Below are positions 19,821 through 35,127 of a stretch of 38,623 nucleotides of DNA, piece by piece (within the stretch, counting starts at the first letter, position 1; each line of letters begins with the position of its first letter). The stretch comes from a virus: the IMG/VR virus record IMGVR_UViG_3300046810_000372, positions 1 through 38,623 of that record, one strand, 5' to 3'. Both the position numbers and the translations under genes were made by a program. The notes beneath the pieces are model-generated. The model made no database searches and was not told the origin of the DNA. It was given only the letters and a program-made list of their open reading frames with translations.

Positions 19821-19841
19821 ACCCGCGACACTGTCGCGGGT
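19821..19841 (-). terminator. hairpin after first array gene
   Basis: ACCCGCGACA paired with TGTCGCGGGT, followed by TTCC on the minus strand. Confidence 0.6.
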
Positions 19842-19859
19842 TGTTTCTGGTTAACGTTT

Positions 19860-19886
19860 GGTTATCAGGCCTGATGCCTGATAACC
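19860..19886. repeat. perfect 11-bp inverted repeat over gene end
   Basis: GGTTATCAGGC-N5-GCCTGATAACC. It contains the stop codon of the 19865 gene and could fold as a second 3' hairpin. Confidence 0.6.
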
Positions 19887-20104
19887 TTTGCCATTTCCTT
19901 GATCTTTTCAACCACATGCTTTTCCAGAGAACCGTCGCAGCAAGGGCGATGAACCGACCAGTAGAAATCTTTGCCGTTGGTCTTGTAACGTTCGATCTTT
20001 GTGAGCTTAGGGAACGTGCCGCGCGCCGCGCGAAGGAAGGTAGCGCGATAAGTGCGAAAGCGCTGGTCTTCGAAAGTTACCGTGAATTCGTTTGCGTTGT
20101 TCAT
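19865..20104 (-). CDS. hypothetical basic protein, 79 residues
   Basis: MNNANEFTVTFEDQRFRTYR; basic, with a CC pair (RPCCDG) and a helical end. The last cassette of the array in transcription order. Not recognised. Confidence 0.7.
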   Translation of the reverse strand: MNNANEFTVTFEDQRFRTYRATFLRAARGTFPKLTKIERYKTNGKDFYWSVHRPCCDGSLEKHVVEKIKEMAKVIRHQA

Positions 20105-20130
20105 GTCCGTCTCTCCTTGTTGACATCCTC

Positions 20131-20158
20131 ACTATATCGCATTTTGCGAGGTATGTAA
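20131..20158 (-). promoter_or_regulatory. cassette promoter/operator 1
   Basis: TTACAT, 16 bp, TATAGT; operator TCGCA-TTT-TGCGA at 20137-20149. Drives the gene starting at 20104. Confidence 0.75.
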
Positions 20159-20202
20159 CAGTTTATTTTTAACCGTTTGGGGTATGGTTAACGAGAGGTT
20201 AA

Positions 20203-20224
20203 CAGGTGGACTATTGTCCACCTG
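20203..20224 (-). terminator. hairpin over stop codon of 20211 gene
   Basis: CAGGTGGAC-AATA-GTCCACCTG; the stop TAG lies at the loop. No T tract. Confidence 0.5.
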
Positions 20225-20390
20225 CCATCTTGCGGCGCATATTCATGACCAGCGTGTTACCTGTTACGCCGCGCGTCCATTCAGTCTCACGCGCCTTGCG
20301 GCGGCTTTCTTCCGTAGGTGTTTCACCTACAGGCAAGCAGATATCCTTGGACTGTGAAGCGTAGGAAGAACCGTTGAAGACGTTGAACAT
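20211..20390 (-). CDS. hypothetical protein, 59 residues
   Basis: MFNVFNGSSYASQSKDICLP with a basic second half (EESRRKARETEWTRG). The ATG is chosen because AAGGAG in the standard cassette leader precedes it. Unknown. Confidence 0.65.
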   Translation of the reverse strand: MFNVFNGSSYASQSKDICLPVGETPTEESRRKARETEWTRGVTGNTLVMNMRRKMAGGQ

Positions 20391-20416
20391 GTCCGTAACT
20401 CCTTGTTGACATGTCC

Positions 20417-20444
20417 ACAGTATCGCATTTTGCGAGGTATGCAA
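20417..20444 (-). promoter_or_regulatory. cassette promoter/operator 2
   Basis: TTGCAT, 16 bp, TACTGT; operator at 20423-20435. Drives the gene at 20390. Confidence 0.75.
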
Positions 20445-20523
20445 TACCAATCTTTCAGCCGTTGGCCTGATAGTTAACATGGTGTTAACAGGCCATGACC
20501 TGCCCTCCCATAGCAGCGGGCAT

Positions 20524-20547
20524 AGAAAAGCCCGGCATTTGCCGGGC
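20524..20547 (-). terminator. terminator after 20578 gene
   Basis: GCCCGGC-AAAT-GCCGGGC followed by TTTTCT. Confidence 0.8.
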
Positions 20548-20577
20548 CATAGGAAGGCATGGAAAGGCGTTTGCGCC

Positions 20578-20781
20578 CTACGCTAGCAGCCGTAAGGCGA
20601 ACCTGAATTCGTGCCCTACGGGCAGCATTTTGATCAGGTCGCGGGAAAAGCTGGAATAGTCCGGACCATGATTCCCGAAACGGAGAATTACCGTTTCATC
20701 GCAGGTGTAAACATCCTTTCCATCCAATCGGCCATGAAAGGAGCACGCGACGCAATCATGCGTGAATTTCGGCTTAAGCAT
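20578..20781 (-). CDS. hypothetical protein, 67 residues
   Basis: MLKPKFTHDCVACSFHGRLD with a CVAC pair and a further Cys (TCDE). The ATG follows GGGGAG. Second gene of a two-gene cassette. Unknown. Confidence 0.65.
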   Translation of the reverse strand: MLKPKFTHDCVACSFHGRLDGKDVYTCDETVILRFGNHGPDYSSFSRDLIKMLPVGHEFRFALRLLA

Positions 20782-20798
20782 TGTGGTAACTCCCCTTT

Positions 20799-20930
20799 TT
20801 ATCGATATGTGTTTTCAATCGCGGCGCATGCCTGCTGAATATTCAGGTAACAATCGACTCGATTTGTGACCGGCAGGGCAAAGACATAGGCCGAGATGAC
20901 AAGCAAAACCGCGCTTAGCAGATTGGACAT
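20799..20930 (-). CDS. putative exported or membrane micropeptide, 43 residues
   Basis: MSNLLSAVLLVISAYVFALP looks like a signal peptide with a possible cleavage after FA; the mature part has two Cys (DCYLNIQQACAA). First gene of the cassette. Confidence 0.6.
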   Translation of the reverse strand: MSNLLSAVLLVISAYVFALPVTNRVDCYLNIQQACAAIENTYR

Positions 20931-20958
20931 TTTCAGAAACTCCTTGTTGACTGCCCGA

Positions 20959-20986
20959 ACGATATCGCATTTTGCGAGGATGTAAA
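20959..20986 (-). promoter_or_regulatory. cassette promoter/operator 3
   Basis: TTTACA, 16 bp, TATCGT; operator at 20965-20977. Drives the genes at 20930 and 20781. Confidence 0.75.
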
Positions 20987-21055
20987 TCCGCAAAATTCAG
21001 CCGGTTGAAATATGGTTAACGCCGGGTAAACGCAATCGGCGCGCGGCAAGGCCGC

Positions 21056-21080
21056 GTTAACCTTAATTCGTAGGGTTAAC
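21056..21080. repeat. 25-bp GTTAAC dyad
   Basis: GTTAAC-CTTAATTCGTAGG-GTTAAC. Confidence 0.85.
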
Positions 21081-21134
21081 GCCTTGGCCATAAAATCCGA
21101 AAAATTTGAGTAAAATTTTATCGATCGGGGAAAG

Positions 21135-21158
21135 GAAAAAGAGGGGATTTCTCCCCTC
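21135..21158 (-). terminator. terminator after 21164 gene
   Basis: GAGGGGA-GAAA-TCCCCTC followed by TTTTTCC. Confidence 0.85.
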
Positions 21159-21163
21159 TCCTT

Positions 21164-21388
21164 TCAAGCCGCGTTTGCGGCCGGAGAATTGGCAACGATG
21201 AAATCGTGCAAGGCATCGGCCGCGCCCATGTAGTCGCGAGCGGTAAATTTCTTGCCAGTGATTTTTTCGGCCATCGCAATCATGTTCTTCGGCGTGTACG
21301 CCTTGTTAACGCGCATGCCGGTCTTTGCGTAGAAGCGAAGTGCATGCTTGATTGCGAGAGCCTGATAGAGCGAGACCTGAATTTCCAT
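21164..21388 (-). CDS. hypothetical protein, 74 residues
   Basis: MEIQVSLYQALAIKHALRFY, helical and basic, with TPKNMIAMAEKITGKKFTAR near the middle. It resembles small phage proteins of unknown function. The ATG follows AGGAG. Confidence 0.65.
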   Translation of the reverse strand: MEIQVSLYQALAIKHALRFYAKTGMRVNKAYTPKNMIAMAEKITGKKFTARDYMGAADALHDFIVANSPAANAA

Positions 21389-21421
21389 GTGAGCAACTCC
21401 TGTTTGCTTGTTGACCATTAC

Positions 21422-21449
21422 AGAATACAGCAAAATGCGAGGTGGTCAA
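21422..21449 (-). promoter_or_regulatory. cassette promoter/operator 4 (variant palindrome)
   Basis: TTGACC, 16 bp, TATTCT. The palindrome is imperfect: TCGCA-TTT-TGCTG read on the minus strand (21428-21440). Drives the gene at 21388. Confidence 0.7.
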
Positions 21450-21522
21450 CAGCTAAATTTCAGCCGTTTGGAAATTGGTTAACAGGCGGTTAAGAAACAT
21501 GGTTAACGGAATCGGCCGATTT

Positions 21523-21547
21523 GTTAACCCTACTCAGCAGGGTTAAC
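21523..21547. repeat. 25-bp GTTAAC dyad
   Basis: GTTAAC-CCTACTCAGCAGG-GTTAAC. Confidence 0.85.
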
Positions 21548-21561
21548 GCCCGGTTAACGGC

Positions 21562-21596
21562 CGATCGGGAGGATTTTAATCAAATCCTCCCGATCG
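21562..21596 (-). terminator. long hairpin after 21598 gene
   Basis: CGATCGGGAGGATTT pairs with AAATCCTCCCGATCG around a short loop, immediately after the stop codon. Confidence 0.75.
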
Positions 21597-21597
21597 C

Positions 21598-22182
21598 TCA
21601 GGCCTTGGCGAGGGCGGCGCGGCGGGGCCGGGCCTTGGCTGGCGCAGGCGTCTCGGCCTTGGCGGCGGGCTTCTTGGCCTGCCGGTCCGGTGCCGGTCCT
21701 GCCTTTCCGGTCCGGCCTTTCCGGTCCGGGCCGGTCCGGGCCGGGCCTTTCCCGGCGGTCGTTTCCACGGGCTCGGCGGCGGGCTCTGGCGGGCTTTCCG
21801 GCGGGGCCGGTGGTTCCGGGTCGTCGTCGCCGAACATGTCGATCAGCGGCGCGTCGCGACGTTCGCGCACGGGCTTGATCTTCTTTTCCGCTTGGAACTT
21901 GACCGCGACCGATGCCGATTGCTCGGCCTCGAAGGCTGAAACATCCGGCGGAGCCTTGCCGAGATCGCCGAGATCGCGCAAGCCGACAAGGGCGAGAACC
22001 ACGATTTTCGGTATCCGTTGGCCGTTGTAAACCGTCATGTAGCGATGGAGCTGGGAATAGCTGATACCGGTCCAATCACTGAACGCGGAGCGCCACCCCT
22101 CGCCCCATATTTCCTTGCAGAGCATTTCCAGCCCGGCGGGCGTGATGAATACCTTGCTGTCTGGGTCTTTCTTTGGTGCCAT
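21598..22182 (-). CDS. putative DNA-binding protein with basic Ala/Pro/Lys tail
   Basis: A 194-residue protein. Residues 10-75 (VFITPAGLEMLCKEIWGEGW, then AFSDWTGISYSQLHRYMTVY) read as a helix-turn-helix fold of the kind in small repressors. After an acidic linker (MFGDDDPEPPAPPES), the last 60 residues are Lys/Arg/Ala/Pro-rich, like a histone H1-type tail. It is the best candidate in the array for binding its own palindromes. This is inference. The coding DNA of the tail is built of GGTCCGG-like repeats, similar to the region at 35580-35710. Second gene of a cassette. Confidence 0.65.
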   Translation of the reverse strand: MAPKKDPDSKVFITPAGLEMLCKEIWGEGWRSAFSDWTGISYSQLHRYMTVYNGQRIPKIVVLALVGLRDLGDLGKAPPDVSAFEAEQSASVAVKFQAEKKIKPVRERRDAPLIDMFGDDDPEPPAPPESPPEPAAEPVETTAGKGPARTGPDRKGRTGKAGPAPDRQAKKPAAKAETPAPAKARPRRAALAKA

Positions 22183-22206
22183 ATTCTAAGTCTCCTTTAA
22201 TGGCTG

Positions 22207-22229
22207 GGACGGCGCTTAGCGCGCCGTCC
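22207..22229 (-). terminator. hairpin over stop of 22216 gene
   Basis: GGACGGCGC-GCTAA-GCGCCGTCC; the stop codon is in the loop. No T tract, so transcription probably continues into the 21598 gene. Confidence 0.6.
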
Positions 22230-22380
22230 GAAATGCAATCACCAGTGTTTCGTGCTCGGAGAACAAATCCATCAGCTTGGCGTTGACGGCCTTGCGGTTG
22301 AAATCGGAGATGATATCTGCGAGGTGCTGAACGCGGGACTCGATAACGATGAACCGCTTGAGAATTTCCTTTTTCGACAT
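22216..22380 (-). CDS. hypothetical protein, 54 residues
   Basis: MSKKEILKRFIVIESRVQHL, helical; the end is FSEHETLVIAFRTAR. First gene in the cassette that continues to the putative DNA-binding protein. Confidence 0.65.
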   Translation of the reverse strand: MSKKEILKRFIVIESRVQHLADIISDFNRKAVNAKLMDLFSEHETLVIAFRTAR

Positions 22381-22407
22381 TCTACGTACTCCTTGTTGAC
22401 ATCATGG

Positions 22408-22435
22408 AGCATATCGCAAAATGCGAGATTGTAAA
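22408..22435 (-). promoter_or_regulatory. cassette promoter/operator 5
   Basis: TTTACA, 16 bp, TATGCT; operator TCGCA-AAA-TGCGA at 22414-22426 (spacer bases inverted). Drives 22380 and 22182. Confidence 0.75.
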
Positions 22436-22484
22436 GCCCGGATTCGAAAATATGGTTAATGGAAAAGAATTTTCGAATTCAAAA

Positions 22485-22545
22485 ATTTCAAGGGTCCCCG
22501 GCTTTTTCCGTGGAAAAATTTAAAGGGTCCCCGGCTTGCGTGGGG
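22485..22545. repeat. two GGGGACCC elements
   Basis: On the minus strand GCCGGGGACCCTTTAAATTT and GCCGGGGACCCTTGAAATTT, 34 bp apart. They share form with the two copies inside the terminase gene (36401-36470). Confidence 0.65.
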
Positions 22546-22552
22546 GTGTGGC

Positions 22553-22577
22553 GTTAACCTTGATTGGCAGGGTTAAC
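22553..22577. repeat. 25-bp GTTAAC dyad
   Basis: GTTAAC-CTTGATTGGCAGG-GTTAAC. Confidence 0.85.
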
Positions 22578-22589
22578 GGCTGTGGGTGG

Positions 22590-22612
22590 AAAGAAAGGCC
22601 GGTTGCCCGGCC
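22590..22612 (-). terminator. terminator after 22618 gene
   Basis: GGCCGG-GCAA-CCGGCC followed by TTTCTTT. Confidence 0.85.
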
Positions 22613-22617
22613 TCCCC

Positions 22618-23067
22618 TCACCTGTGATAAATCCACCCCCTATAGGTTTCGACATAGGCCTCGCCCTGTCGGCGTGCCACGTCCTGCAAGCGTTTCAGGC
22701 AGGATGCGTCACCATCATCGGTAAAGCCAACGCCGTGACCCTGCCGCGCGAACCAAAAGAGATTTCCGAGGCGTGCGTCGCTCAATTCGAACTTGGCATA
22801 TCTGAAATCGTCGGAACCGGGTTCCAGTTCCTTGGCCGCTTCCAAATCGGCTTCGTTCTCTTTCCAGAACTTGACGCAGTCGGCGGCGATATCCTTGATC
22901 GCCTCTTTCGTCAGTCGCTCGACTCCGAGATTGTTGAGCTTGTGCTCATCGTCGTCGCCCGTATCGCCATTGGTGAAAAACATGGCCTCGACATAACCCT
23001 TGGCGAAATCGCCGAGTTCGTCATATTGCTTCGGCGCGGGTCGATCGTTCAAAATGAACTGTGGCAT
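22618..23067 (-). CDS. conserved phage protein of unknown function, 149 residues
   Basis: It belongs, by my recognition, to a family common in phages and plasmids: an N-terminal GYVEAMFFT segment, a middle helix (KEAIKDIAADCVKFWKENE), and a C-terminal LFWFARQGHGVGFTDDGDA motif corresponding to DFW-x-x-R-x-GHG-x-GF. No function is established. ATG 23067 is preceded by AGGAG-type leader sequence. Confidence 0.7.
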   Translation of the reverse strand: MPQFILNDRPAPKQYDELGDFAKGYVEAMFFTNGDTGDDDEHKLNNLGVERLTKEAIKDIAADCVKFWKENEADLEAAKELEPGSDDFRYAKFELSDARLGNLFWFARQGHGVGFTDDGDASCLKRLQDVARRQGEAYVETYRGWIYHR

Positions 23068-23097
23068 TACGTTAACTCCTTGACTGTTGACATCCTC

Positions 23098-23125
23098 ACA
23101 ATATCGCATTTTGCGAGATATACAA
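23098..23125 (-). promoter_or_regulatory. cassette promoter/operator 6
   Basis: TTGTAT, 16 bp, TATTGT; operator at 23104-23116. GTTAAC at 23144 lies 27 bp beyond it, next to TTGACA. Drives 23067. Confidence 0.8.
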
Positions 23126-23186
23126 GCGCCTTGTCAAGAAATGGTTAACACCGATCGGGCGGCGCGGCAAGCCCGGCCGAGCCGCT

Positions 23187-23211
23187 GTTAACCTTGCTGA
23201 TCAGGGTTAAC
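23187..23211. repeat. 25-bp GTTAAC dyad
   Basis: GTTAAC-CTTGCTGATCAGG-GTTAAC. Confidence 0.88.
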
Positions 23212-23222
23212 GGCGGGTGACC

Positions 23223-23249
23223 AAAAGAAAAGAGGCGCTTGCGCGCCTC
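23223..23249 (-). terminator. terminator after 23253 gene
   Basis: GAGGCGC-GCAA-GCGCCTC followed by TTTTCTTTT. The same hairpin recurs in many cassettes. Confidence 0.9.
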
Positions 23250-23252
23250 CCC

Positions 23253-23642
23253 TCATTCGCCGAAATAGAACACCGCGCAATAGGCCTCAAGGATTTCGGC
23301 CAAGTCGTCGGGCAGGTCAGCGCCATGCAAATCCGTCCAAGGCGTAAACCAGTCCTGATATTGCAGGCGCGGTTCAAACGCCTCATTGTGTTCTGTCAGC
23401 TCGCCGACGATCTGCACCGCCGGGCCTCCAGTGCACAATAGAATCCTGAATTCCAGAGGCTCCAGTGTCGCGCCGACTGAGGCCCAGCCGCTACGCACTT
23501 CGACGCTCAGCGCATCCTGTTCGATCGCCTCGCGGGCGGTATCGTCGTCGGTATCGTTTGCCGCTTTCAGGGCTTCGACCATTTCGCGAATCGAGGCGAA
23601 TTGCGCGAGGGCTTGGTTGCGGGCGTTTTCGAGGTTCGACAT
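23253..23642 (-). CDS. conserved phage/plasmid protein of unknown function, 129 residues
   Basis: Recognised family character: ASIREMVEALKAAND, SVEVRSGWASVGATLE, ILLCTGGPAVQIVGEL, LQYQDWFTPW and a C-terminal YFGE. This family is common in accessory regions of alphaproteobacterial phages and plasmids, with no known function. The start ATG 23642 follows the standard leader with CGGAG. Confidence 0.72.
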   Translation of the reverse strand: MSNLENARNQALAQFASIREMVEALKAANDTDDDTAREAIEQDALSVEVRSGWASVGATLEPLEFRILLCTGGPAVQIVGELTEHNEAFEPRLQYQDWFTPWTDLHGADLPDDLAEILEAYCAVFYFGE

Positions 23643-23671
23643 TTGTTTGCATCTCCGTTGTTGACATGATC

Positions 23672-23699
23672 AACATATCGCATTTTGCGAGAGACGCAA
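23672..23699 (-). promoter_or_regulatory. cassette promoter/operator 7
   Basis: TTGCGT, 16 bp, TATGTT; operator at 23678-23690. Drives 23642. Confidence 0.82.
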
Positions 23700-23749
23700 G
23701 CGCTTTGTCAAGAAATGGTTAACATTCGATCGGCGCGACGGCGGCAGGC

Positions 23750-23774
23750 GTTAACCTTGCTGATCAGGGTTAAC
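23750..23774. repeat. 25-bp GTTAAC dyad
   Basis: GTTAAC-CTTGCTGATCAGG-GTTAAC, identical in its core to those at 23187 and 28701. Confidence 0.88.
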
Positions 23775-23808
23775 GGCAGGCCACTTTCGGATCGAGGCGG
23801 GCCCGCGA

Positions 23809-23827
23809 GTTCCGGGAAACCCGGAAC
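23809..23827 (-). terminator. hairpin after 23840 gene
   Basis: GTTCCGGG-TTT-CCCGGAAC; no T tract after it. Confidence 0.6.
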
Positions 23828-23839
23828 CCGCTTTTTGGC

Positions 23840-24223
23840 TCAGGCCGCGCCCGCCTCGTCCTCCTTCTTGTCTGCATAGCAGTCATCCATCAGCACGGTG
23901 AGGAAGGCGAACGGCTTGGCGTCCCTGCGGGTGTCGTGCTCGCGCTCGCCAGTCCAGAGGATGGCGTGCATGCCGGGGCTCGGCTCGCGGCTCTTGGTCA
24001 TCACCTCAACGCCGCTGTCGTGATAGGAGATGTCGGCGCACTGCGGCGCAGCACCGTGGTTATAGGGCAGCAGCGCGATGGTCAGGCGCTTGCCTTCGCT
24101 GGTTTTCAGCGTCACCGTCGAAATGCCGTCCGGCACGTCGATGGCGTAGTGCGTGCAGTGATTGAAGGTGGCGTAGCCTGCGGCCTGCGCCTCTTCCTCG
24201 GTGGCGAATGTCTTGACTTCCAT
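23840..24223 (-). CDS. hypothetical protein, 127 residues
   Basis: MEVKTFATEEEAQAAGYATF, then beta strands (DGISTVTLKTSEGKRLTIAL) and an acidic C terminus. Not recognised; single-gene cassette. Confidence 0.68.
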   Translation of the reverse strand: MEVKTFATEEEAQAAGYATFNHCTHYAIDVPDGISTVTLKTSEGKRLTIALLPYNHGAAPQCADISYHDSGVEVMTKSREPSPGMHAILWTGEREHDTRRDAKPFAFLTVLMDDCYADKKEDEAGAA

Positions 24224-24252
24224 GACTTTGTATCTCCGTTGTTGACATGATC

Positions 24253-24280
24253 ACCATATCGCATTTTGCGAGAGATTCAA
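24253..24280 (-). promoter_or_regulatory. cassette promoter/operator 8
   Basis: TTGAAT, 16 bp, TATGGT; operator at 24259-24271. Drives 24223. Confidence 0.82.
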
Positions 24281-24330
24281 GCGCAATGCTGGATTATAGT
24301 TAACGGCGGCGACCGCTTTCATGCCCCGCC

Positions 24331-24355
24331 ATTAACCTTGCCAGTCAGGGTTAAC
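24331..24355. repeat. 25-bp GTTAAC-type dyad
   Basis: ATTAAC-CTTGCCAGTCAGG-GTTAAC. Confidence 0.82.
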
Positions 24356-24371
24356 GGCGGTGAAGGGAATC

Positions 24372-24398
24372 GAAAAGCCGCGCCTTGCGGGCGCGGCT
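24372..24398 (-). terminator. terminator after micropeptide
   Basis: AGCCGCGCC-CGCAA-GGCGCGGCT followed by TTTCG. Confidence 0.8.
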
Positions 24399-24403
24399 GT
24401 CGA

Positions 24404-24463
24404 TCACAATGGCCATATCACGTAGAGAATGGCAAGCCAGAGAAGCAGAGAGATCAGCGGCAT
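24404..24463 (-). CDS. 19-residue membrane micropeptide, copy 1
   Basis: MPLISLLLWLAILYVIWPL, a single hydrophobic segment. The ATG overlaps the stop of the 24463 gene (TGATG), giving translational coupling. A second copy in another cassette (30001-30060) ends in the same WLAILYVIWPL. Six of the differences between the copies are silent, evidence that the peptide itself is selected. A membrane role is inferred. Confidence 0.75.
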   Translation of the reverse strand: MPLISLLLWLAILYVIWPL

Positions 24464-24711
24464 CAGTATTGCTGCATGCCCGGAAAGTTCGGGTGGGCGT
24501 CGATCCATGCCTGCGCCTCGGCTGCGGTTTCGAACGGTTTGCGGCCGAGGCCGATGGTGCCGTCCGGGTGCTTGATGGTGAAGCCGGTGGTCACCATCGA
24601 CCAGTTGGCCTTGTCGGACTCGCCGCGCCACGGCAATGCGCCGTAGGGGCTGACAGTCAGGCCGCTGATGTTGTGGCGATAGTGCCGGGATTCGATTACG
24701 GTTGCCTTCAT
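24463..24711 (-). CDS. conserved small phage protein, 82 residues
   Basis: MKATVIESRHYRHNISGLTV, SPYGALPW, TTGFTIKHPDGTIGLGRKPF and AWIDAHPNFPG. The layout resembles small proteins of alphaproteobacterial phages of unknown function. The Met nine bases after AAGGAG is chosen over the Met touching it. Confidence 0.7.
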   Translation of the reverse strand: MKATVIESRHYRHNISGLTVSPYGALPWRGESDKANWSMVTTGFTIKHPDGTIGLGRKPFETAAEAQAWIDAHPNFPGMQQY

Positions 24712-24738
24712 GTGTTGCATCTCCTTGTTGACATCCAC

Positions 24739-24766
24739 AACATATCGCATTTTGCGATAGATGCAA
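24739..24766 (-). promoter_or_regulatory. cassette promoter/operator 9
   Basis: TTGCAT, 16 bp, TATGTT; operator at 24745-24757. Drives 24711 and the micropeptide. Confidence 0.82.
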
Positions 24767-24801
24767 GCAGGAAAACAGGAAATGGTTAACGGCGGCGCGC
24801 A

Positions 24802-24814
24802 TCGCATGTTGCGA
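24802..24814. promoter_or_regulatory. extra operator without a gene start
   Basis: TCGCA-TGT-TGCGA, next to the GTTAAC dyad and 45 bp upstream of operator 9. A second binding site that could allow cooperative binding. Confidence 0.65.
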
Positions 24815-24815
24815 T

Positions 24816-24840
24816 GTTAACCTTGATAGGTATGGTTAAC
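24816..24840. repeat. 25-bp GTTAAC dyad
   Basis: GTTAAC-CTTGATAGGTATG-GTTAAC, abutting the extra operator. Confidence 0.85.
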
Positions 24841-24850
24841 GCGGTCATCC

Positions 24851-29935: not shown

Positions 29936-29964
29936 AGGTGGATCACTCCACCGAGAGGGCCAAA

Positions 29965-29994: not shown

Positions 29995-30000
29995 TGCCGT

Positions 30001-30060: not shown

Positions 30061-30063
30061 CGC

Positions 30064-30348
30064 TCAGACCTTCATGGCCTCCACGATGTCTTCCTCTTCC
30101 CAGTCTGCCGTCTCAAACTGGATCGTCAAGGCGTCGCAGTCGTTCAGTATGTAGCCAAACAGTTGCGCCTCGCGGGCCTGTACCTCGAACTGCTTGGCCA
30201 GCGCCTTGGCGGCGTCGACGCTCACCAGACCGTTGCCACCTGTGGCCGCGACCTTGGTCATCATCTTGGCGTTCTCGCGGAACCGCTCGGTGGCGACTTG
30301 GCAGATGTTGGCCAGCGTCGAGGTGTCGTTGATCGTCTTGGTCTTCAT
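30064..30348 (-). CDS. hypothetical helical protein, 94 residues
   Basis: MKTKTINDTSTLANICQVAT, with long helices and an acidic end (WEEEDIVEAMKV). Not recognised. Its cassette ends with micropeptide copy 2. Confidence 0.68.
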   Translation of the reverse strand: MKTKTINDTSTLANICQVATERFRENAKMMTKVAATGGNGLVSVDAAKALAKQFEVQAREAQLFGYILNDCDALTIQFETADWEEEDIVEAMKV

Positions 30349-30375
30349 GTCCGTTTCTCCGTTGTTGACATGACA

Positions 30376-30403
30376 ACCATATCGCATTGTGCGAGGAACG
30401 CAA
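30376..30403 (-). promoter_or_regulatory. cassette promoter/operator 17
   Basis: TTGCGT, 16 bp, TATGGT; operator TCGCA-TTG-TGCGA at 30382-30394. Drives 30348. Confidence 0.82.
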
Positions 30404-30454
30404 GCGACAAGTTGTGAAATGGTTAACGCCGATCAGGCTGGCGGGCTCGCCTGA

Positions 30455-30479
30455 ATTAACCTTGATTGCTATGGTTAAT
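30455..30479. repeat. 25-bp GTTAAC-type dyad
   Basis: ATTAAC-CTTGATTGCTATG-GTTAAT. Confidence 0.8.
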
Positions 30480-30490
30480 GGCGAGCGGCT

Positions 30491-30518
30491 GAAAAGAAAA
30501 GAGGCGCTGGCGCGCCTC
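30491..30518 (-). terminator. terminator after 30521 gene
   Basis: GAGGCGC-GCCA-GCGCCTC followed by TTTTCTTTT. Confidence 0.88.
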
Positions 30519-30520
30519 CT

Positions 30521-30658
30521 CTATCGATATGCTATGCCGCTCTGGGCGGTCTCTTCGATGTGCCAGCCGCCGGGCAGCGCTGCCCGCAGCTCGTCGGCAG
30601 AGCAGAACACAAGCCCGATGCCGACGACGCGAAACCATTTCTGCCTTACATCCACCAC
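30521..30658 (-). CDS. hypothetical protein, 45 residues (GTG start)
   Basis: A frame overlapping the end of the 30646 gene: GTG 30658 after GGGGGA. The product (QKWFRVVGIGLVFCSADELR) is compact and mixed alpha/beta. Assigned because it is open up to the terminator and coupled to the upstream gene. Confidence 0.55.
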   Translation of the reverse strand: MVDVRQKWFRVVGIGLVFCSADELRAALPGGWHIEETAQSGIAYR

Positions 30659-30891
30659 GGTTCCCCCGCCTCGTTGACCGCCGGGCGCAACGCCTCGCCT
30701 CGGCTGTCGAAGCGGTCGTCGGGGCTGATGCGATAGCGGCGCTCGATGGCGGCGTCGCTATCGTCCTCGGCGTCGGCGGCGAGACTGTCGAAATGGTCCT
30801 GCTCCTCCTCAGCGAGGATTTCCTGCACCAGCTCGACGCTCATGCCTTCGTTGAGCATGGTGGCAATGCGTTCGATCAAATCCTTGTTCAT
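30646..30891 (-). CDS. hypothetical acidic protein, 81 residues
   Basis: MNKDLIERIATMLNEGMSVE, with helices and an acidic stretch, ending GEPWWM. The N-terminal part looks like a small dimerising helix pair. First gene of a two-gene cassette. Confidence 0.68.
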   Translation of the reverse strand: MNKDLIERIATMLNEGMSVELVQEILAEEEQDHFDSLAADAEDDSDAAIERRYRISPDDRFDSRGEALRPAVNEAGEPWWM

Positions 30892-30917
30892 CTGCGTTCT
30901 CCGTTGTTGACATGATC

Positions 30918-30945
30918 AGAGTATCGCATTTTGCGAGAGATGCAA
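30918..30945 (-). promoter_or_regulatory. cassette promoter/operator 18
   Basis: TTGCAT, 16 bp, TACTCT; operator at 30924-30936. GTTAAC at 30964 is 27 bp beyond. Drives 30891. Confidence 0.82.
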
Positions 30946-30984
30946 GCGCGAAAGTCTGGAATAGTTAACAGCGACGCCGCGTCC

Positions 30985-31009
30985 GTTTACCTTGATGATC
31001 AGGGTTAAC
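30985..31009. repeat. 25-bp GTTAAC-type dyad
   Basis: GTTTAC-CTTGATGATCAGG-GTTAAC. Confidence 0.84.
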
Positions 31010-31025
31010 GACGCGGCACAGGAGA

Positions 31026-31072
31026 GAGGCGCTGGTGCGCCTCCTCCGGGAAAAGAGGCGCTTGCGCGCCTC
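31026..31072 (-). terminator. two tandem terminators after 31071 gene
   Basis: Two copies of the GAGGCGC/GCGCCTC hairpin (31026-31043 and 31055-31072), the second followed by TTTTCCC. A duplicated terminator. Confidence 0.85.
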
Positions 31073-31505
31073 AGGCCAGCCATCCCTGTTCGTTGTAGAA
31101 GGCAAACTGCTTCTCGGCATCGTCCCAGACGCAATCGATCCTTCCCTTGAGCGTATCGCTGAAGACGTCGGCGATGTAGTCCTTGATCTGATTGCGATCA
31201 CGGCCGGAAATCTTCAGGTCGAAGCCGTCATGTTCGGCGATCACGGTGACGCGGTGCTGCGTCCAGCCATCGTACATCCCGGCATCGTTCATGTGATGGT
31301 ATGCCGTTTCGAACACCAGCTTGGCAGGAGTCGATCTGTCGATATCCAGAGTGGAGCCGCTATCGAAGCCGGAGCCCGATGGCAGGAAGGCTTTGCACAG
31401 CCGGACGATCTCGTCACTGTTACGCTCGTGCACTTCAAGCACATTGGCGTTCTGCATGGTGCGTATCCGCGCGGCAAAGGTATGGATCAGGGAATGTGTC
31501 GGCAT
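31071..31505 (-). CDS. hypothetical protein, 144 residues
   Basis: MPTHSLIHTFAARIRTMQNA, then RNSDEIVRLCKAFLPSGSGF, DIDRSTPAKLVFETAYHHMN and a basic strand (DLKISGRDRNQIKDYIADVF). Not recognised. Single-gene cassette. Confidence 0.68.
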   Translation of the reverse strand: MPTHSLIHTFAARIRTMQNANVLEVHERNSDEIVRLCKAFLPSGSGFDSGSTLDIDRSTPAKLVFETAYHHMNDAGMYDGWTQHRVTVIAEHDGFDLKISGRDRNQIKDYIADVFSDTLKGRIDCVWDDAEKQFAFYNEQGWLA

Positions 31506-31533
31506 GGTGTTTTCTCCAGTTGTTGACCACTCG

Positions 31534-31561
31534 ACACTATCGCATTTTGCGAGGAACACAA
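31534..31561 (-). promoter_or_regulatory. cassette promoter/operator 19
   Basis: TTGTGT, 16 bp, TAGTGT; operator at 31540-31552. GTTAAC at 31580 is 27 bp beyond. Drives 31505. Confidence 0.82.
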
Positions 31562-31622
31562 GCAGTTTGTCAAGAAATGGTTAACAGCCGCGAGCCGGTT
31601 TGGCAAGCCTGCGCTGCCGGAA

Positions 31623-31647
31623 ATTAACCCTGATGATCAGGGTTAAC
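31623..31647. repeat. 25-bp GTTAAC-type dyad
   Basis: ATTAAC-CCTGATGATCAGG-GTTAAC. Confidence 0.86.
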
Positions 31648-31656
31648 GCGGGCATC

Positions 31657-31684
31657 CAAAAGTAAAGAGGCGCTGGCGCGCCTC
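31657..31684 (-). terminator. terminator after 31683 gene
   Basis: GAGGCGC-GCCA-GCGCCTC followed by TTTACTTTT. Confidence 0.87.
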
Positions 31685-31901
31685 AATATCCGTAGGGATC
31701 GGCCTTGGCGTATCTCACCTTGCCGTCATCGACGTAGAGGCCGGTCTCGTGGTGGCCGTCGTTCCTGACGTAGCGGTGCGCCTCCTGCTTGGTGACGCGG
31801 CGCAGCGCATAGCCTGCGGCTCGCAGCGCCTGCTCCTCCTTGGGGCTGGCGATCTCGACCAGCGTCGTCGTGTAGGCGGTCTCGCGTAGGGCGTAAAACA
31901 T
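31683..31901 (-). CDS. hypothetical protein, 72 residues
   Basis: MFYALRETAYTTTLVEIASP, then EEQALRAAGYALRRVTKQEA, HRYVRNDGHHETGLYVDDGK. A small alpha/beta protein; not recognised. Confidence 0.66.
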   Translation of the reverse strand: MFYALRETAYTTTLVEIASPKEEQALRAAGYALRRVTKQEAHRYVRNDGHHETGLYVDDGKVRYAKADPYGY

Positions 31902-31929
31902 TGTGGTGTTCTCCGTTGTTGACATCCCA

Positions 31930-31957
31930 ACAATATCGCATTTTGCGAGATGTGCAA
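31930..31957 (-). promoter_or_regulatory. cassette promoter/operator 20
   Basis: TTGCAC, 16 bp, TATTGT; operator at 31936-31948. Drives 31901. Confidence 0.82.
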
Positions 31958-31992
31958 GCGGAAATGTTGTGAATGGTTAACACTGGAGACTA

Positions 31993-32005
31993 TCGCATAT
32001 TGCGA
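31993..32005. promoter_or_regulatory. extra operator without a gene start
   Basis: TCGCA-TAT-TGCGA, touching the GTTAAC dyad, 45 bp upstream of operator 20. The same arrangement occurs at 24802. Confidence 0.65.
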
Positions 32006-32006
32006 T

Positions 32007-32031
32007 GTTAACCCTAATGATCAGGGTTAAC
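32007..32031. repeat. 25-bp GTTAAC dyad
   Basis: GTTAAC-CCTAATGATCAGG-GTTAAC. Confidence 0.88.
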
Positions 32032-32050
32032 GGACATCGCCATAAGGAGA

Positions 32051-32093
32051 GAGGCGCTGGCGCGCCTCCTCCGGAAAGGCCGCTCGTGCGGCC
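32051..32093 (-). terminator. two tandem hairpins after 32099 gene
   Basis: GGCCGC-ACGA-GCGGCC (followed by TTTCC) then GAGGCGC-GCCA-GCGCCTC (followed by TCTCC). Confidence 0.8.
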
Positions 32094-32098
32094 TCCCC

Positions 32099-32278
32099 TC
32101 AAAGCGCCTCGGAGGCCACGAACCGTGGCACGCGCACCGGACTAGGGTCACGCACCCAGACACTGTCCGGGTTGACGCCATAGTCGCGCGACGCAGCCAG
32201 CAGGCGGGCGCTGGCGAGATCGGGCGCGCGCACCTCGTCAAAGGGAACCGCGCCAATCATGATGGTGAACGTCTTCAT
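32099..32278 (-). CDS. hypothetical protein, 59 residues
   Basis: MKTFTIMIGAVPFDEVRAPD, with a helical ASARLLAASRDYGVNPDSVW part. Similar in size to small phage proteins of unknown role. Found by direct translation after the cassette leader. Confidence 0.66.
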   Translation of the reverse strand: MKTFTIMIGAVPFDEVRAPDLASARLLAASRDYGVNPDSVWVRDPSPVRVPRFVASEAL

Positions 32279-32304
32279 GTCTCTCTCCTGTTGTTGACCA
32301 GATC

Positions 32305-32332
32305 ACCATATCGCATTTTGCGAGATACGCAA
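32305..32332 (-). promoter_or_regulatory. cassette promoter/operator 21
   Basis: TTGCGT, 16 bp, TATGGT; operator at 32311-32323. The dyad follows only 21 bp beyond. Drives 32278. Confidence 0.82.
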
Positions 32333-32344
32333 GCAACAATCGGG

Positions 32345-32369
32345 ATTAACCTTGATGATCAGGGTTAAC
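32345..32369. repeat. 25-bp GTTAAC-type dyad
   Basis: ATTAAC-CTTGATGATCAGG-GTTAAC. Confidence 0.86.
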
Positions 32370-32385
32370 GCCGAGCGGGTGGAGT

Positions 32386-32405
32386 GGGGCGGATCACGCC
32401 GCCCC
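32386..32405 (-). terminator. hairpin over stop of 32394 gene
   Basis: GGGGCGG-CGTGAT-CCGCCCC; the TGA stop lies in the loop. No T tract. Confidence 0.6.
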
Positions 32406-32660
32406 TTCCCGCTCTGCCATGATGTCGATGATCTGCTGCTCGCCTTCGATGCCGGTGCCGGTCTCGCCGTCGTGGTAGATGATGCGGTCGGCCATGTTCA
32501 TGGTCGCCGCGTTGCGGGCCAGCTCGATGGTGAGGACGCGGCCAAGATGTCCACCGCAAATCTCGGCCAGCGTGGTGATGCCTTTTTCGAGACCGGCGGT
32601 CTTGTGGCGGCTGACGCTGAAGCCGGTCGGCGACTTGTGGATGAAGATGGTGGTGGTCAT
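32394..32660 (-). CDS. hypothetical protein, 88 residues
   Basis: MTTTIFIHKSPTGFSVSRHK, then ITTLAEICGGHLGRVLTIEL and IIYHDGETGTGIEGEQQIID. Not recognised. Single-gene cassette. Confidence 0.66.
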   Translation of the reverse strand: MTTTIFIHKSPTGFSVSRHKTAGLEKGITTLAEICGGHLGRVLTIELARNAATMNMADRIIYHDGETGTGIEGEQQIIDIMAEREGAA

Positions 32661-32685
32661 GTCGATCTCCGTTGTTGACATGATC

Positions 32686-32713
32686 AGAGTATCGCATTTT
32701 GCGAGGAACGCAA
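32686..32713 (-). promoter_or_regulatory. cassette promoter/operator 22
   Basis: TTGCGT, 16 bp, TACTCT; operator at 32692-32704. Drives 32660. This interval has a single GTTAAC but no dyad. Confidence 0.82.
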
Positions 32714-32746
32714 GCGCCGAGTTCTGGAATGGTTAACGCGACGGGC

Positions 32747-32772
32747 AAAAGAAAGAGGCGCTTGCGCGCCTC
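32747..32772 (-). terminator. terminator after 32776 gene
   Basis: GAGGCGC-GCAA-GCGCCTC followed by TTTCTTTT. Confidence 0.88.
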
Positions 32773-32775
32773 GCC

Positions 32776-33126
32776 TTACTTCTTGCCGTGTTCCATTGCC
32801 ACCCGGACGGCGCTTTTCACGAGGTCAGCCGGTCGCGTGTGCTCGCGCGGGCGGTCGGCCAGCGTCTTGGACTTGGGCTGCTCGCCCAGCTCCTCGACAC
32901 GGGTATGGAACACCGGCAGGCCGATCGCACTGCGGGCCAGCGTCCAGCCCTCGGTGACGCCATTGCCGAAGGCGATCAACTGCTCATACTTGGCGCTCTT
33001 GTCGGCCTCATCGCCGGGCGTATAGAAGGCGGTCTGGATCACATGGCCCGGCCCGTGCACCGCGCCATCGGTATCGACCAGCGAGAAACAGCCGGTGACG
33101 TGGACAATCTTCATTTTCAACTGCAT
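32776..33126 (-). CDS. hypothetical protein, 116 residues
   Basis: MQLKMKIVHVTGCFSLVDTD, VIQTAFYTPGDEADKSAKYE, a basic C terminus (RPADLVKSAVRVAMEHGKK). Not recognised. Confidence 0.66.
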   Translation of the reverse strand: MQLKMKIVHVTGCFSLVDTDGAVHGPGHVIQTAFYTPGDEADKSAKYEQLIAFGNGVTEGWTLARSAIGLPVFHTRVEELGEQPKSKTLADRPREHTRPADLVKSAVRVAMEHGKK

Positions 33127-33157
33127 GGTGGGTGTCTCCTTCGTTGTTGACAGATCG

Positions 33158-33185
33158 ATGGTATCGCATTTTGCGAGAGATGCAA
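33158..33185 (-). promoter_or_regulatory. cassette promoter/operator 23
   Basis: TTGCAT, 16 bp, TACCAT; operator at 33164-33176. Drives 33126. Confidence 0.82.
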
Positions 33186-33189
33186 GCGG

Positions 33190-33372
33190 AAAAGAGCCGC
33201 AAAAGCTGCATCGACAAAAACAGCATTGCAATGGTTAATACAGGAATTTCAAGGTGTTGCAAGGGTCGTGCTGGCTTGTGTCAAAAGCAGCATCAGCCGA
33301 TTCAGCATCGAGCCGATGTCAGAAAATCGCGTGACTTTTTGGCCACAGGCGGGCTGCGCCGACCGCGCCTGC
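33190..33372. other. gene-free segment with GCAGCATC-type motifs
   Basis: No gene. It contains GCTGCATC, CAGCATTG, GCAGCATC and TCAGCATC within 120 bp, and CAGCATTGG follows at 33510. The same motif clusters again at 35273-35390. Confidence 0.5.
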
Positions 33373-33397
33373 GTTAACCTTAATTGATATGGTTAAC
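33373..33397. repeat. 25-bp GTTAAC dyad
   Basis: GTTAAC-CTTAATTGATATG-GTTAAC. Confidence 0.87.
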
Positions 33398-33429
33398 GGC
33401 GTGGCCCGGCGATGCAGCTTTTGCGCGGC

Positions 33430-33468
33430 CAAAATAAAACCCGCCAAGGCTCATAAGCACTTGGCGGG
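33430..33468 (-). terminator. terminator after 33538 gene
   Basis: CCCGCCAAG-N11-CTTGGCGGG followed by TTTTATTTT. It is 70 bp beyond the stop codon, farther than in other cassettes. Confidence 0.85.
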
Positions 33469-33537
33469 CCTGCGTTTTGTCAACAGCGCAGGAAACTGGT
33501 CTTAGCAGCATTGGAATCAGGCGGGTTCGAGCGTGGT

Positions 33538-33729
33538 CTAAAGCCACGCCCACGCGCCTTGATCGTGGTAGGTCTGCCGGGCCTTCTCTGCCATCCAGTC
33601 GGTGCCGTCCGGGTGGATGACATGGTCGACATTGGGATAGTCCTCGCAGCGCTTCAGCGCGGCGATGTAGGTCAGGCCTGCCTCGATGAAGGTGTTGTCG
33701 AAGCGGCGGGTGATGGTGTAGGTCTGCAT
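33538..33729 (-). CDS. hypothetical protein, 63 residues
   Basis: MQTYTITRRFDNTFIEAGLT, then AALKRCEDYPNVDHVIHPDG and WMAEKARQTYHDQGAWAWL. A small alpha/beta fold; not recognised. Confidence 0.67.
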   Translation of the reverse strand: MQTYTITRRFDNTFIEAGLTYIAALKRCEDYPNVDHVIHPDGTDWMAEKARQTYHDQGAWAWL

Positions 33730-33754
33730 GGCTGTTCTCCTTGTTGACGCTTAC

Positions 33755-33782
33755 ATCATATCGCATTTTGCGAGGAACGCAA
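33755..33782 (-). promoter_or_regulatory. cassette promoter/operator 24
   Basis: TTGCGT, 16 bp, TATGAT; operator at 33761-33773. Drives 33729. No dyad in this interval. Confidence 0.83.
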
Positions 33783-33810
33783 GCGCCAACTTCTGGAATG
33801 GTTAACAGCA

Positions 33811-33984
33811 TCAATCTGGGTCGGAAATCGCCACGTGCGCGGCGATGTTACATTTCTCGGCTTCACGCTCGGCGGCTGCAATCGCCGCCTTGGCGATGCG
33901 CTCCAAGATCGCCTCGCGATCCGGGAACCTTACAGGCACGTCGCGCCAGTCGGCGACGTAGACGCGAATCAGGATGTCATCCAT
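33811..33984 (-). CDS. hypothetical protein, 57 residues
   Basis: MDDILIRVYVADWRDVPVRF, then an Ala/Glu/Lys helix (KAAIAAAEREAEKCNIAAH). The ATG lies 8 bp inside the upstream gene. Second gene of its cassette; no terminator hairpin follows. Confidence 0.65.
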   Translation of the reverse strand: MDDILIRVYVADWRDVPVRFPDREAILERIAKAAIAAAEREAEKCNIAAHVAISDPD

Positions 33985-34297
33985 GGTCTACGTCCTCGCT
34001 ATCGTCGTCGTCCTCCTCCTCGCTATCGTCGTCGTCCGGCAGTTCGTCTTCCAGATCGGCGCGGGTTGCTTCGGCGTAGACGGTGATGGCGGGCGACATC
34101 GAGATATCCGGGAAATCCGGGTGATCGAACGACGCGCCGGATACCGGCAGGCCATCGATGAATTCATCACCCGTGCGCAGCTCGCCGCCATCCATGTGGA
34201 AGGCCTTGACCTGCTCGACGGCCTCGGCCTCGGATGCGGCGACGACATAGACGGTCGCCGCAATCGTGATTTCGACACTGTAGATTGATTTTGACAT
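33977..34297 (-). CDS. hypothetical protein with acidic tail, 106 residues
   Basis: MSKSIYSVEITIAATVYVVA, a strand-helix start, then FHMDGGELRTGDEFIDGLPV and a tail of Asp/Glu (DDDDSEEEDDDDSED). Acidic tails of this kind can mimic DNA, as in phage inhibitor proteins; here that is only a possibility. Confidence 0.66.
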   Translation of the reverse strand: MSKSIYSVEITIAATVYVVAASEAEAVEQVKAFHMDGGELRTGDEFIDGLPVSGASFDHPDFPDISMSPAITVYAEATRADLEDELPDDDDSEEEDDDDSEDVDHG

Positions 34298-34324
34298 TTG
34301 CGGTTACTCCTTGTTGACGCCCTG

Positions 34325-34352
34325 ACACTATCGCATTTTGCGAGACGGTCAA
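34325..34352 (-). promoter_or_regulatory. cassette promoter/operator 25
   Basis: TTGACC, 16 bp, TAGTGT; operator at 34331-34343. Drives 34297 and 33984. Confidence 0.82.
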
Positions 34353-34423
34353 GCATCTTGTCAAGAAATGGTTAACAGTCGCGAGCCGGTTTGGCAACCC
34401 CGGCGGAGACGTGCTCCGCCTGT

Positions 34424-34448
34424 GTTAACCTTAATTCGTATGGTTAAC
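34424..34448. repeat. 25-bp GTTAAC dyad
   Basis: GTTAAC-CTTAATTCGTATG-GTTAAC. Confidence 0.87.
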
Positions 34449-34461
34449 GGGGATCGGCCGG

Positions 34462-34484
34462 GCAAAGAGGCGCTGGCGCGCCTC
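34462..34484 (-). terminator. terminator after 34487 gene
   Basis: GAGGCGC-GCCA-GCGCCTC followed by TTTGCC. Confidence 0.8.
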
Positions 34485-34486
34485 CC

Positions 34487-34702
34487 CTACTCGGCCTTCC
34501 TGACGCGGTCGTGGAACGCCTTGATGGCGGCGGTCTCGGTATCGCCGTGAAAGGTGCCGGAGCCGCTATCGTCGCACCACTCGGCGGATCGCGTGTAGAT
34601 GAAAACGCCGTCTTCGCCTTCGATGGAAAGACCGGTCACCCGGTCTTTCTCCTTGGCAAGGAACGCCTGCATCGCCTTGGTCTTCGGACGATCAAAGCGC
34701 AT
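34487..34702 (-). CDS. hypothetical protein, 71 residues
   Basis: MRFDRPKTKAMQAFLAKEKD, DGVFIYTRSAEWCDDSGSGT, ETAAIKAFHDRVRKAE. Second gene of its cassette, 3 bp after the upstream stop. Confidence 0.66.
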   Translation of the reverse strand: MRFDRPKTKAMQAFLAKEKDRVTGLSIEGEDGVFIYTRSAEWCDDSGSGTFHGDTETAAIKAFHDRVRKAE

Positions 34703-34705
34703 GAT

Positions 34706-35005
34706 TCAGACCCTCGCGTTGAAGGCGGCGTTCAGCCTGCCGGTCGGATCGTAGCGGGTGCACTTGACGTTGAAGGCCTCCTCGGCCTCCGCCAGCGTCT
34801 TGCAGTAATCGCCGTTGTGGGTGCCTCCGCTCTGGGTGTTGGCGAACCACACCACATAAGGATGGTTCTTGTTCGAACGCAGGAAGGCAATGACGATGGC
34901 ACCGGGTGCCTGCATGCCGTCGCCGTCCATGCCATAGAAGCGGTCGGCGCGCATGCGGTAGTCGGCAACCAGTTCCGGATTGCCCTTGACGAATTGTTCT
35001 GACAT
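34706..35005 (-). CDS. hypothetical protein, 99 residues
   Basis: MSEQFVKGNPELVADYRMRA, GAIVIAFLRSNKNHPYVVWF, THNGDYCKTLAEAEEAFNVK. Resembles small phage proteins of unknown role. First gene of the first cassette transcribed in the array. Confidence 0.67.
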   Translation of the reverse strand: MSEQFVKGNPELVADYRMRADRFYGMDGDGMQAPGAIVIAFLRSNKNHPYVVWFANTQSGGTHNGDYCKTLAEAEEAFNVKCTRYDPTGRLNAAFNARV

Positions 35006-35030
35006 TGTCGTTCTCCTTGTTGACGCCCTC

Positions 35031-35058
35031 ACTTTATCGCATTTTGCGAGATACGCAA
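35031..35058 (-). promoter_or_regulatory. cassette promoter/operator 26
   Basis: TTGCGT, 16 bp, TAAAGT; operator at 35037-35049. Drives 35005 and 34702. Right-hand end of the array. Confidence 0.82.
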
Positions 35059-35127
35059 GCGCCTTGTCAAGAAATGGTTAACGGCGGGTGCCGGTCGGCG
35101 CGGTCGGCGGAGAAGTGCTCCGCCTGC

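Follow-up and report, generated by a model that had tools for sequence, protein, structure and literature searches.

How are dozens of unrelated small phage genes placed under common control? This question is raised by an array of stereotyped cassettes at positions 19840-35060 of IMG/VR virus record IMGVR_UViG_3300046810_000372, a 38,623-base record without a longer parent, which represents a fragment of a phage genome and is called the window below. An initial annotation had described 26 cassettes at these coordinates as one regulon; both coordinates and count proved correct. We found that the promoters carry a palindrome in the gap between -35 and -10 and that most have, farther upstream, a box of the type recognised by CtrA, the host cell-cycle regulator. 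The proposed regulon thus appears to combine two superimposed inputs, of which the CtrA half is already described (PMC9437464). Judged by its major capsid protein (78% with Mesorhizobium phage Cp1R7A-A1, 55-57% with relatives of the type of Caulobacter phage phiCbK) and its terminase (59% to Cp1R7A-A1), the window phage is a phiCbK-like siphophage, akin to Cp1R7A-A1 and further from phiCbK-like phages. The array lies just downstream of the terminase gene, as in the relatives, which have genes of their terminal repeats at this place; in phage Lacusarx the terminal-repeat region occupies the matching place beside the terminase (PMC5648845).

Array statistics were obtained by scanning both strands and by dinucleotide shuffling (300 shuffles for the palindrome count). 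The minus strand carries 25 promoters in the interval 20131-35058; the array genes also run on this strand, which corrects the initial annotation. The gap between -35 and -10 was 16 bp in all 25. When the spacing of TTGNNT and TANNNT was varied from 10 to 22, the pair occurred 19 times at 16, once each at 14 and 20, and never at the remaining distances. The palindrome TCGCA-N3-TGCGA forms the last 13 of the 16 gap bases and abuts the -10. It was exact in 23 of 25 promoters, with one mismatch at 27773 and two at 21440, and its arms were almost invariant while the flanking bases varied. A comparison with shuffled sequence, which the initial annotation had suggested, placed the palindrome far beyond chance: all 25 exact copies in the window lie within the array, compared with 0.06 per shuffle (maximum 2 in 300). 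Twenty-three of these 25 copies lie inside promoters, and the other two are each located 57 bp upstream of a primary one. The 26th promoter has a half-site, with only the right arm TTTTGCGA. The -10 read TANNNT in 25/25 cases and the -35 read TTGNNT in 19/25 (the others were TTGACC, TTGCAC, TTTACA and TTACAT), as had been described. A constant 5' leader, GTCAACAA..GGAG, follows the promoters; its first bases, GTCAACA, begin 6 bases past the -10 (7 in two cases) and probably mark the mRNA 5' end. In six cassettes TTGACA-N18-CAAAAT could serve as an alternative promoter; we kept it as possible and did not favor it, because the downstream TANNNT is invariant and at a fixed distance to the leader. 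The array holds about 33 small genes, close to the 35 estimated before, and most of the array proteins searched had no known family. Clear terminators followed only some cassettes, although a terminator had been thought usual.

The second input was found upstream of the promoters. GTTAAC, previously noted as a dyad after the genes, was indeed strongly enriched in the array (65 copies vs 1.7 expected), as were GTTAACCAT (26 vs 0.07) and, with one mismatch allowed, TTAA-N7-TTAA (20 vs 2.3). Rather than a mere post-gene dyad, it is, by its sequence and its fixed distance to the promoter, a CtrA-type site; the promoter box can be written TTAACCAT. Of the 25 promoters, 16 have TTAAC(C/T)AT starting exactly 23 nt ahead of the -35, and one has it at 24 nt. 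At 33 nt there are four boxes, three with this sequence and one that reads TTAACCAA, and one more promoter has its box at 53. Further upstream, dyads of the form GTTAACCNT-N7-AAGGTTAAC lie near 65, 74, 86 and 95 nt from the promoter, with phases that cohere best at a 10.5-bp period (n=16, R=0.64; Rayleigh test, p about 0.001, for cassettes that are not fully independent). We argue that this helical phasing reflects a DNA-bound factor on the face of the promoter. Mascolo et al. (PMC9437464) demonstrated CtrA binding and CtrA-dependent reporter expression for Cp1R7A-A1 gene 019 and for phiCbK gp005 and gp018, and expression from the gene 019 promoter drops in a ctrA-ts strain. By homology to these relatives, we infer that CtrA activates the promoters of the window phage.

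We found the same layout in four relatives: G001 (IMG/VR 2920292642_000002, 128,860 bp), Cp1R7A-A1 (131 kb) and two short contigs, L010 and L012. In these relatives a TTAA box is commonly located at a distance of 23, 33 or 44 nt to the -35, and most gaps are N16. L010 and L012 retain TCGCA-N3-TGCGA along with variant forms. Some promoters of G001 and Cp1R7A-A1 have NTGCA-N3-TGCA(A/C) at the same center position, and the remainder have other sequences; the dyad TTGCAGAATGCAA set beside TCGCAAAATGCGA illustrates the contrast of TGCAA with TGCGA arms. When spacers were shuffled within sites, 0 of 5000 shuffles were as symmetric as the observed set for G001, 0 of 5000 for L010 and 11 of 5000 for L012. 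An operator matrix matched only within the arrays of the near-complete G001 and Cp1R7A-A1, and it found no sites in Lacusarx, phage Mwe-JY26 or the phiCbK stretch examined. Besides, when bacterial and archaeal genomes totaling 257 Gb were scanned with the full promoter pattern, there were 38 single, scattered matches, vs about 30 expected by chance from the 17 fixed bases, and no concentration in Rhizobiales. This is therefore a phage element, with a sequence that drifts at a constant position. A DUF932 search for more arrays returned 20 loci, and the more distant ones (L038-L054) had no arrays of this type; an HTH (helix-turn-helix) search of viral contigs gave only G001, and a terminase search gave only L012. 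As a separate observation, the array promoters of Lacusarx (119400-130138; L016/L019/L020) read TTGACGAATC, with a CcrM-type GANTC directly after the -35, and GANTC density is 4.5 per kb in this array vs 1.9 elsewhere; these sites may couple the array to CcrM/GcrA.

A dedicated protein acting on all cassettes had been proposed, by repression or remodeling. The 5-3-5 symmetry, the fixed position within the RNA polymerase footprint, the confinement to the array, the chance-level result in 257 Gb and the change of the palindrome between relatives make it very likely that a common protein binds the dyad, and repression is the probable, although less secure, consequence of this binding. The candidate binder is the product of the gene at 21598-22182, which has an N-terminal HTH-like domain and a Pro/Lys/Ala-rich tail; the chance that this protein is the binder seems to us about even. 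Its homologues include Cp1R7AA1_016 and a 114-residue G001 protein, both with weak HTH_31 matches. By itself the window protein had no PHROG match; its link to the XRE-like HTH 'immunity repressor' family (phrog_3626) is through alignment to the Cp1R7AA1_016, G001 and Mwe-JY26 proteins. The Mwe-JY26 homologue (hhalign probability 97.1%) is annotated as 'immunity repressor' and has several small genes beside it, with stereotyped promoters and a spacer palindrome CTAGNGC-N5-GCNCTAG. The HTH gene lies inside the regulon in 3/3 array regions seen whole (window, G001 and Cp1R7A-A1), and in each the promoter of its operon carries a spacer operator (22408-22435 in the window, 84481 on the minus strand in G001 and about 5043 in Cp1R7A-A1). 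The gene is inverted in G001, yet the operon promoter there still has the operator. Also, an HTH segment that reads SLI(Y/W)RYMT in G001 and Cp1R7A-A1 (arms TGCAA) reads SQLHRYMT in the window (arms TGCGA), a difference compatible with altered operator specificity as far as three sequences indicate.

Beyond these phages, the roseophages RcXuper, DSS3P8 and MD18 (L096, L097, L098) also encode the HTH gene, and their array regions contain 22, 16 and 18 copies, respectively, of GCTT(G/C)AAGC, against 0.2-0.3 expected. For DSS3P8 and MD18, this palindrome is also present in the promoter of the HTH gene itself, where it abuts the -10 as in the window. In Lacusarx we detected no HTH homologue and no spacer palindrome, and phiCbK had a distant HTH match, gp149, outside the terminal repeat. 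TgrL of phiCbK was rejected as an orthologue, the matching phiCbK protein being gp149. A Ros/MucR regulator (Cp1R7A-A1 gene 042; L013 21527-21976, E 5e-50) was rejected as the binder, as the other relatives compared yielded no homologue of it. A side observation on the roseophage arrays is that they consist of small-gene cassettes, that the promoter spacer of many of these contains GAATC and that the arrays have a constant leader with ACCGAAACG.

Several points weigh against repression of the array by this HTH protein. The HTH domain scores under the Pfam cut-offs, and its AlphaFold models are modest (predicted local distance difference test, pLDDT, 53 and 71), with no significant fold match in PDB. 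In Cp1R7A-A1 the overall spacer symmetry was not significant against shuffles, and most array promoters there had no dyad. The palindromes of the roseophage arrays are typically 11-13 bp upstream of the -35, a position suiting activation. Co-occurrence of HTH gene and palindrome is weak evidence in a sequence set that is small and related. Finally, another regulator may be encoded outside the 38.6-kb window, and relatives do encode a second, CI-like HTH_3 regulator.

This second regulator gives the strongest alternative: the dyad would be a repressor operator bound by a protein like Cp1R7AA1_198, the CI-like HTH_3 (partly S24-like) regulator found beside the replication module in relatives, with the phage held as a silent episome. 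In Cp1R7AA1_198 we found an HTH_3 domain (E 1e-12) and similarity to repressor families in PHROG; G001 (64% identity), Mwe-JY26 and the roseophages encode homologues of it, and a report of phiCbK relatives as episomal pseudolysogens (PMC12195562) favors such a role. However, its own promoter in Cp1R7A-A1 shows no dyad of this kind, and the gene is distant from the array, in a region outside the window; we consider this alternative unlikely. The roseophage position suits a different one, in which a phage activator or a phage-modified RNA polymerase turns the array on by reading the dyad as an activator site or promoter-specificity element. The near invariance of the dyad and its company with non-consensus -35 elements such as TTGCGT and TTTACA agree with this idea. 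The gap, however, is a normal 16 bp rather than the 19-20 bp of MerR-type activated promoters, for which reason MerR-type activation was rejected; moreover, the -35 TTG and the -10 TANNNT are conserved as for host sigma-70, and a dyad covering the spacer is in the classical place for a repressor. Overall, activation appears improbable.

A host regulator as the binder has a precedent in CtrA, a host factor that already acts on such promoters (PMC9437464). The chance-level, scattered matches in 257 Gb, with no concentration in Rhizobiales, led us to reject a host-encoded binder; besides, the dyad varies between phages of one group, and this explanation is very unlikely. Recent copying of promoters by recombination, with a dyad that has no binder, would account for the sameness of the cassettes, and identical DNA of up to 45 bp does precede unrelated genes. 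It is slightly less plausible still, given that the arms are nearly invariant while the flanks vary, that symmetry survives sequence change in the relatives and that box-promoter distances stay in helical phase over unlike intervening DNA. Copying as such probably took part: no paralogy was detected among the array proteins, and the order of homologous genes differs in part in L010, L012 and G001, which, together with the shared promoter DNA, supports an exchange of promoter-bearing cassettes. The recombination between cassettes suggested at the outset is in line with this movement of promoter units. Finally, the 5-3-5 dyads resemble the single-stranded hairpin promoters of N4-type virion RNA polymerase (stem of 5, loop of 3), an idea of negligible probability that we rejected, as -35 and -10 are intact at fixed spacing in 25/25 promoters; the annotation of Cp1R7A-A1, a complete relative, includes no RNA polymerase gene, and the window covers an incomplete genome.

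Returning to the HTH protein as repressor, we directly observed the anatomy and its statistics, the fixed geometry, the helical phasing, the array-only distribution in relatives, the divergence of the palindrome at conserved geometry and the HTH gene in the regulon. We propose, with roughly balanced confidence, that the early array is switched on by host CtrA and off by a dimer of the phage HTH protein. Each cassette would have a composite promoter, in which a sigma-70-type -35/-10 pair is preceded at about 23 bp, or at that distance plus one helical turn or more, by a CtrA-type half-site and has a 13-bp dyad operator filling the gap against the -10. CtrA would activate each promoter, and the HTH dimer in the spacer dyad would exclude RNA polymerase. 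The protein would then shut the whole array, including its own gene, in negative feedback, and the outcome might be either a short early pulse followed by shut-off or a silent, episome-like state. A tentative extension, which we hold to be somewhat doubtful, is that phiCbK-like phages in general use one HTH repressor family on dozens of cassette promoters with lineage-specific palindromes, atop control by the host cell cycle, through CtrA here and possibly through CcrM/GcrA where GANTC lies beside the -35. If true, phages deemed strictly lytic would have an immunity-like switch capable of pseudolysogeny, with operator specificity that diversifies between lineages. Genes of no known function abound in the early regions of phiCbK-like phages. 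An operator at every early promoter, a candidate repressor within the regulon and a cell-cycle input make it possible to test directly how such phages persist without integration. Also, the relatives form a natural series in which operator sequence shifts at constant promoter geometry, useful for studies of operator-repressor co-evolution.

Many-operator phage regulons and CtrA sites in phiCbK-like phages are already known. The CtrA promoters described under 'lytic deferment' (PMC9437464) share with the array the phage group, the place relative to the terminase and clustered intergenic TTAA-type sites; the available text of that work treats CtrA sites only and makes no mention of a palindrome in the gap, of a gap held at 16 bp, of helical phasing or of a phage-encoded regulator for the array. 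C1 of phage P1 (PMC8546580) is similar in being a single, autoregulated phage repressor with about 20 operators at many separate promoters, but its 22 operators are asymmetric 17-mers spread over the whole genome, whereas here symmetric 13-mers lie in one array with host cell-cycle input. SPBRE of SPbeta (PMC10516654) is likewise a repeated element in many intergenic promoter regions, later proven to be the site of the master repressor MrpR; it differs as a 15-bp motif at about ten promoters, with a binder of tyrosine-recombinase fold that serves prophage maintenance. Mycobacteriophage cluster A stoperators (PMC6550527), of a kind that the initial annotation had named among the nearest ideas, occur in 20-30 copies and have a consensus that drifts between related phages along with the repressor. 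They are a poor match: asymmetric, 13-14 bp, bound by a monomer, mostly outside promoters and blocking elongation. We rejected them as the identity of the array sites, which are symmetric and inside promoters. TgrL gp216 of phiCbK (PMC10688885) is an early-expressed HTH (XRE) regulator of a phiCbK-like phage that forms homomers; it was studied for host genes, and the match to the window profile is gp149 instead. In the literature searched, we found no description of a palindromic second input or of a fixed composite promoter. The earlier view that the architecture was not known from described phages thus agrees with the literature searched for the palindromic half but not for the CtrA half (PMC9437464).

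Table 1. Features of the array in the window; promoter and operator rows are based on scans of both strands.
Feature	Position	Strand	Remark
Promoter + operator	35031..35058	-	TTGCGT-ATC-TCGCAAAATGCGA-TAAAGT
Promoter + operator	34325..34352	-	-35 TTGACC
Promoter + operator	33755..33782	-	
Promoter + operator	33158..33185	-	
Promoter + operator	32686..32713	-	
Promoter + operator	32305..32332	-	
Secondary operator	31993..32005	-	57 bp upstream of primary
Promoter + operator	31930..31957	-	-35 TTGCAC
Promoter + operator	31534..31561	-	
Promoter + operator	30918..30945	-	
Promoter + operator	30376..30403	-	
Promoter + operator	29833..29860	-	
Promoter + operator	29181..29208	-	
Promoter + operator	28614..28641	-	
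Promoter + 1-mismatch operator	27755..27782	-	TCGCAAAATTCGA; precedes DUF932 gene
Half-operator promoter	26557..26584	-	TTGACC-N16-TATGAT, right arm only
Promoter + operator	26103..26130	-	
Promoter + operator	25506..25533	-	
Secondary operator	24802..24814	-	57 bp upstream of primary
Promoter + operator	24739..24766	-	
Promoter + operator	24253..24280	-	
Promoter + operator	23672..23699	-	
Promoter + operator	23098..23125	-	
Promoter + operator of HTH-gene operon	22408..22435	-	TTTACA-ATC-TCGCATTTTGCGA-TATGCT
Promoter + operator	21422..21449	-	2 mismatches
Promoter + operator	20959..20986	-	-35 TTTACA
Promoter + operator	20417..20444	-	
Promoter + operator	20131..20158	-	-35 TTACAT
Candidate regulator, 194 aa	21598..22182	-	Homologues in Cp1R7A-A1 (gene 016), G001, Mwe-JY26
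54-aa open reading frame	22216..22380	-	First gene of HTH operon
CtrA-type boxes	20184..35082	-	GTTAACCAT and TTAAC(C/T)AT
Upstream dyads	20987..35152	-	GTTAACCNT-N7-AAGGTTAAC
Small array genes	19865..35005	-	About 33
DUF932 gene	26622-27722	-	Sole large array gene recognised by Pfam

Further observations concern individual cassettes and neighboring genes. The half-operator promoter has its -35 inside the stem of a terminator hairpin that follows the DUF932 gene (26557-26605), and in L010 the homologous gene is preceded by a similar arrangement. Another terminator-like hairpin, AAAATGCGAGGGA..TCCCTCGCATTTT (27909-27945), includes both operator half-sites. Two nearly identical hydrophobic open reading frames of 19 residues, MPVIALVIWLAILYVIWPL and MPLISLLLWLAILYVIWPL, with minus-strand starts at 30060 and 24463, terminate two different cassettes and possibly encode a membrane microprotein. 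Outside the array, the large terminase subunit (35847-38561) contains a long insert that keeps the reading frame and has ends like those of an intein (from CVTTPV... to ...VVHNS); the insert is common to Cp1R7A-A1 and partly seen in L012. A phage-encoded DNA-binding protein like GapR (PF10073, E 5e-34) is specified by 13703-13960, and its identity to the copies of Cp1R7A-A1 and G001 is 63-65%. Finally, Mwe-JY26 (PP438418; L035, L036) is named a 'Microcystis phage', and its capsid, terminase and early region are phiCbK-like; its assignment to a cyanobacterial host may merit a check, alphaproteobacteria being common companions in such cultures.

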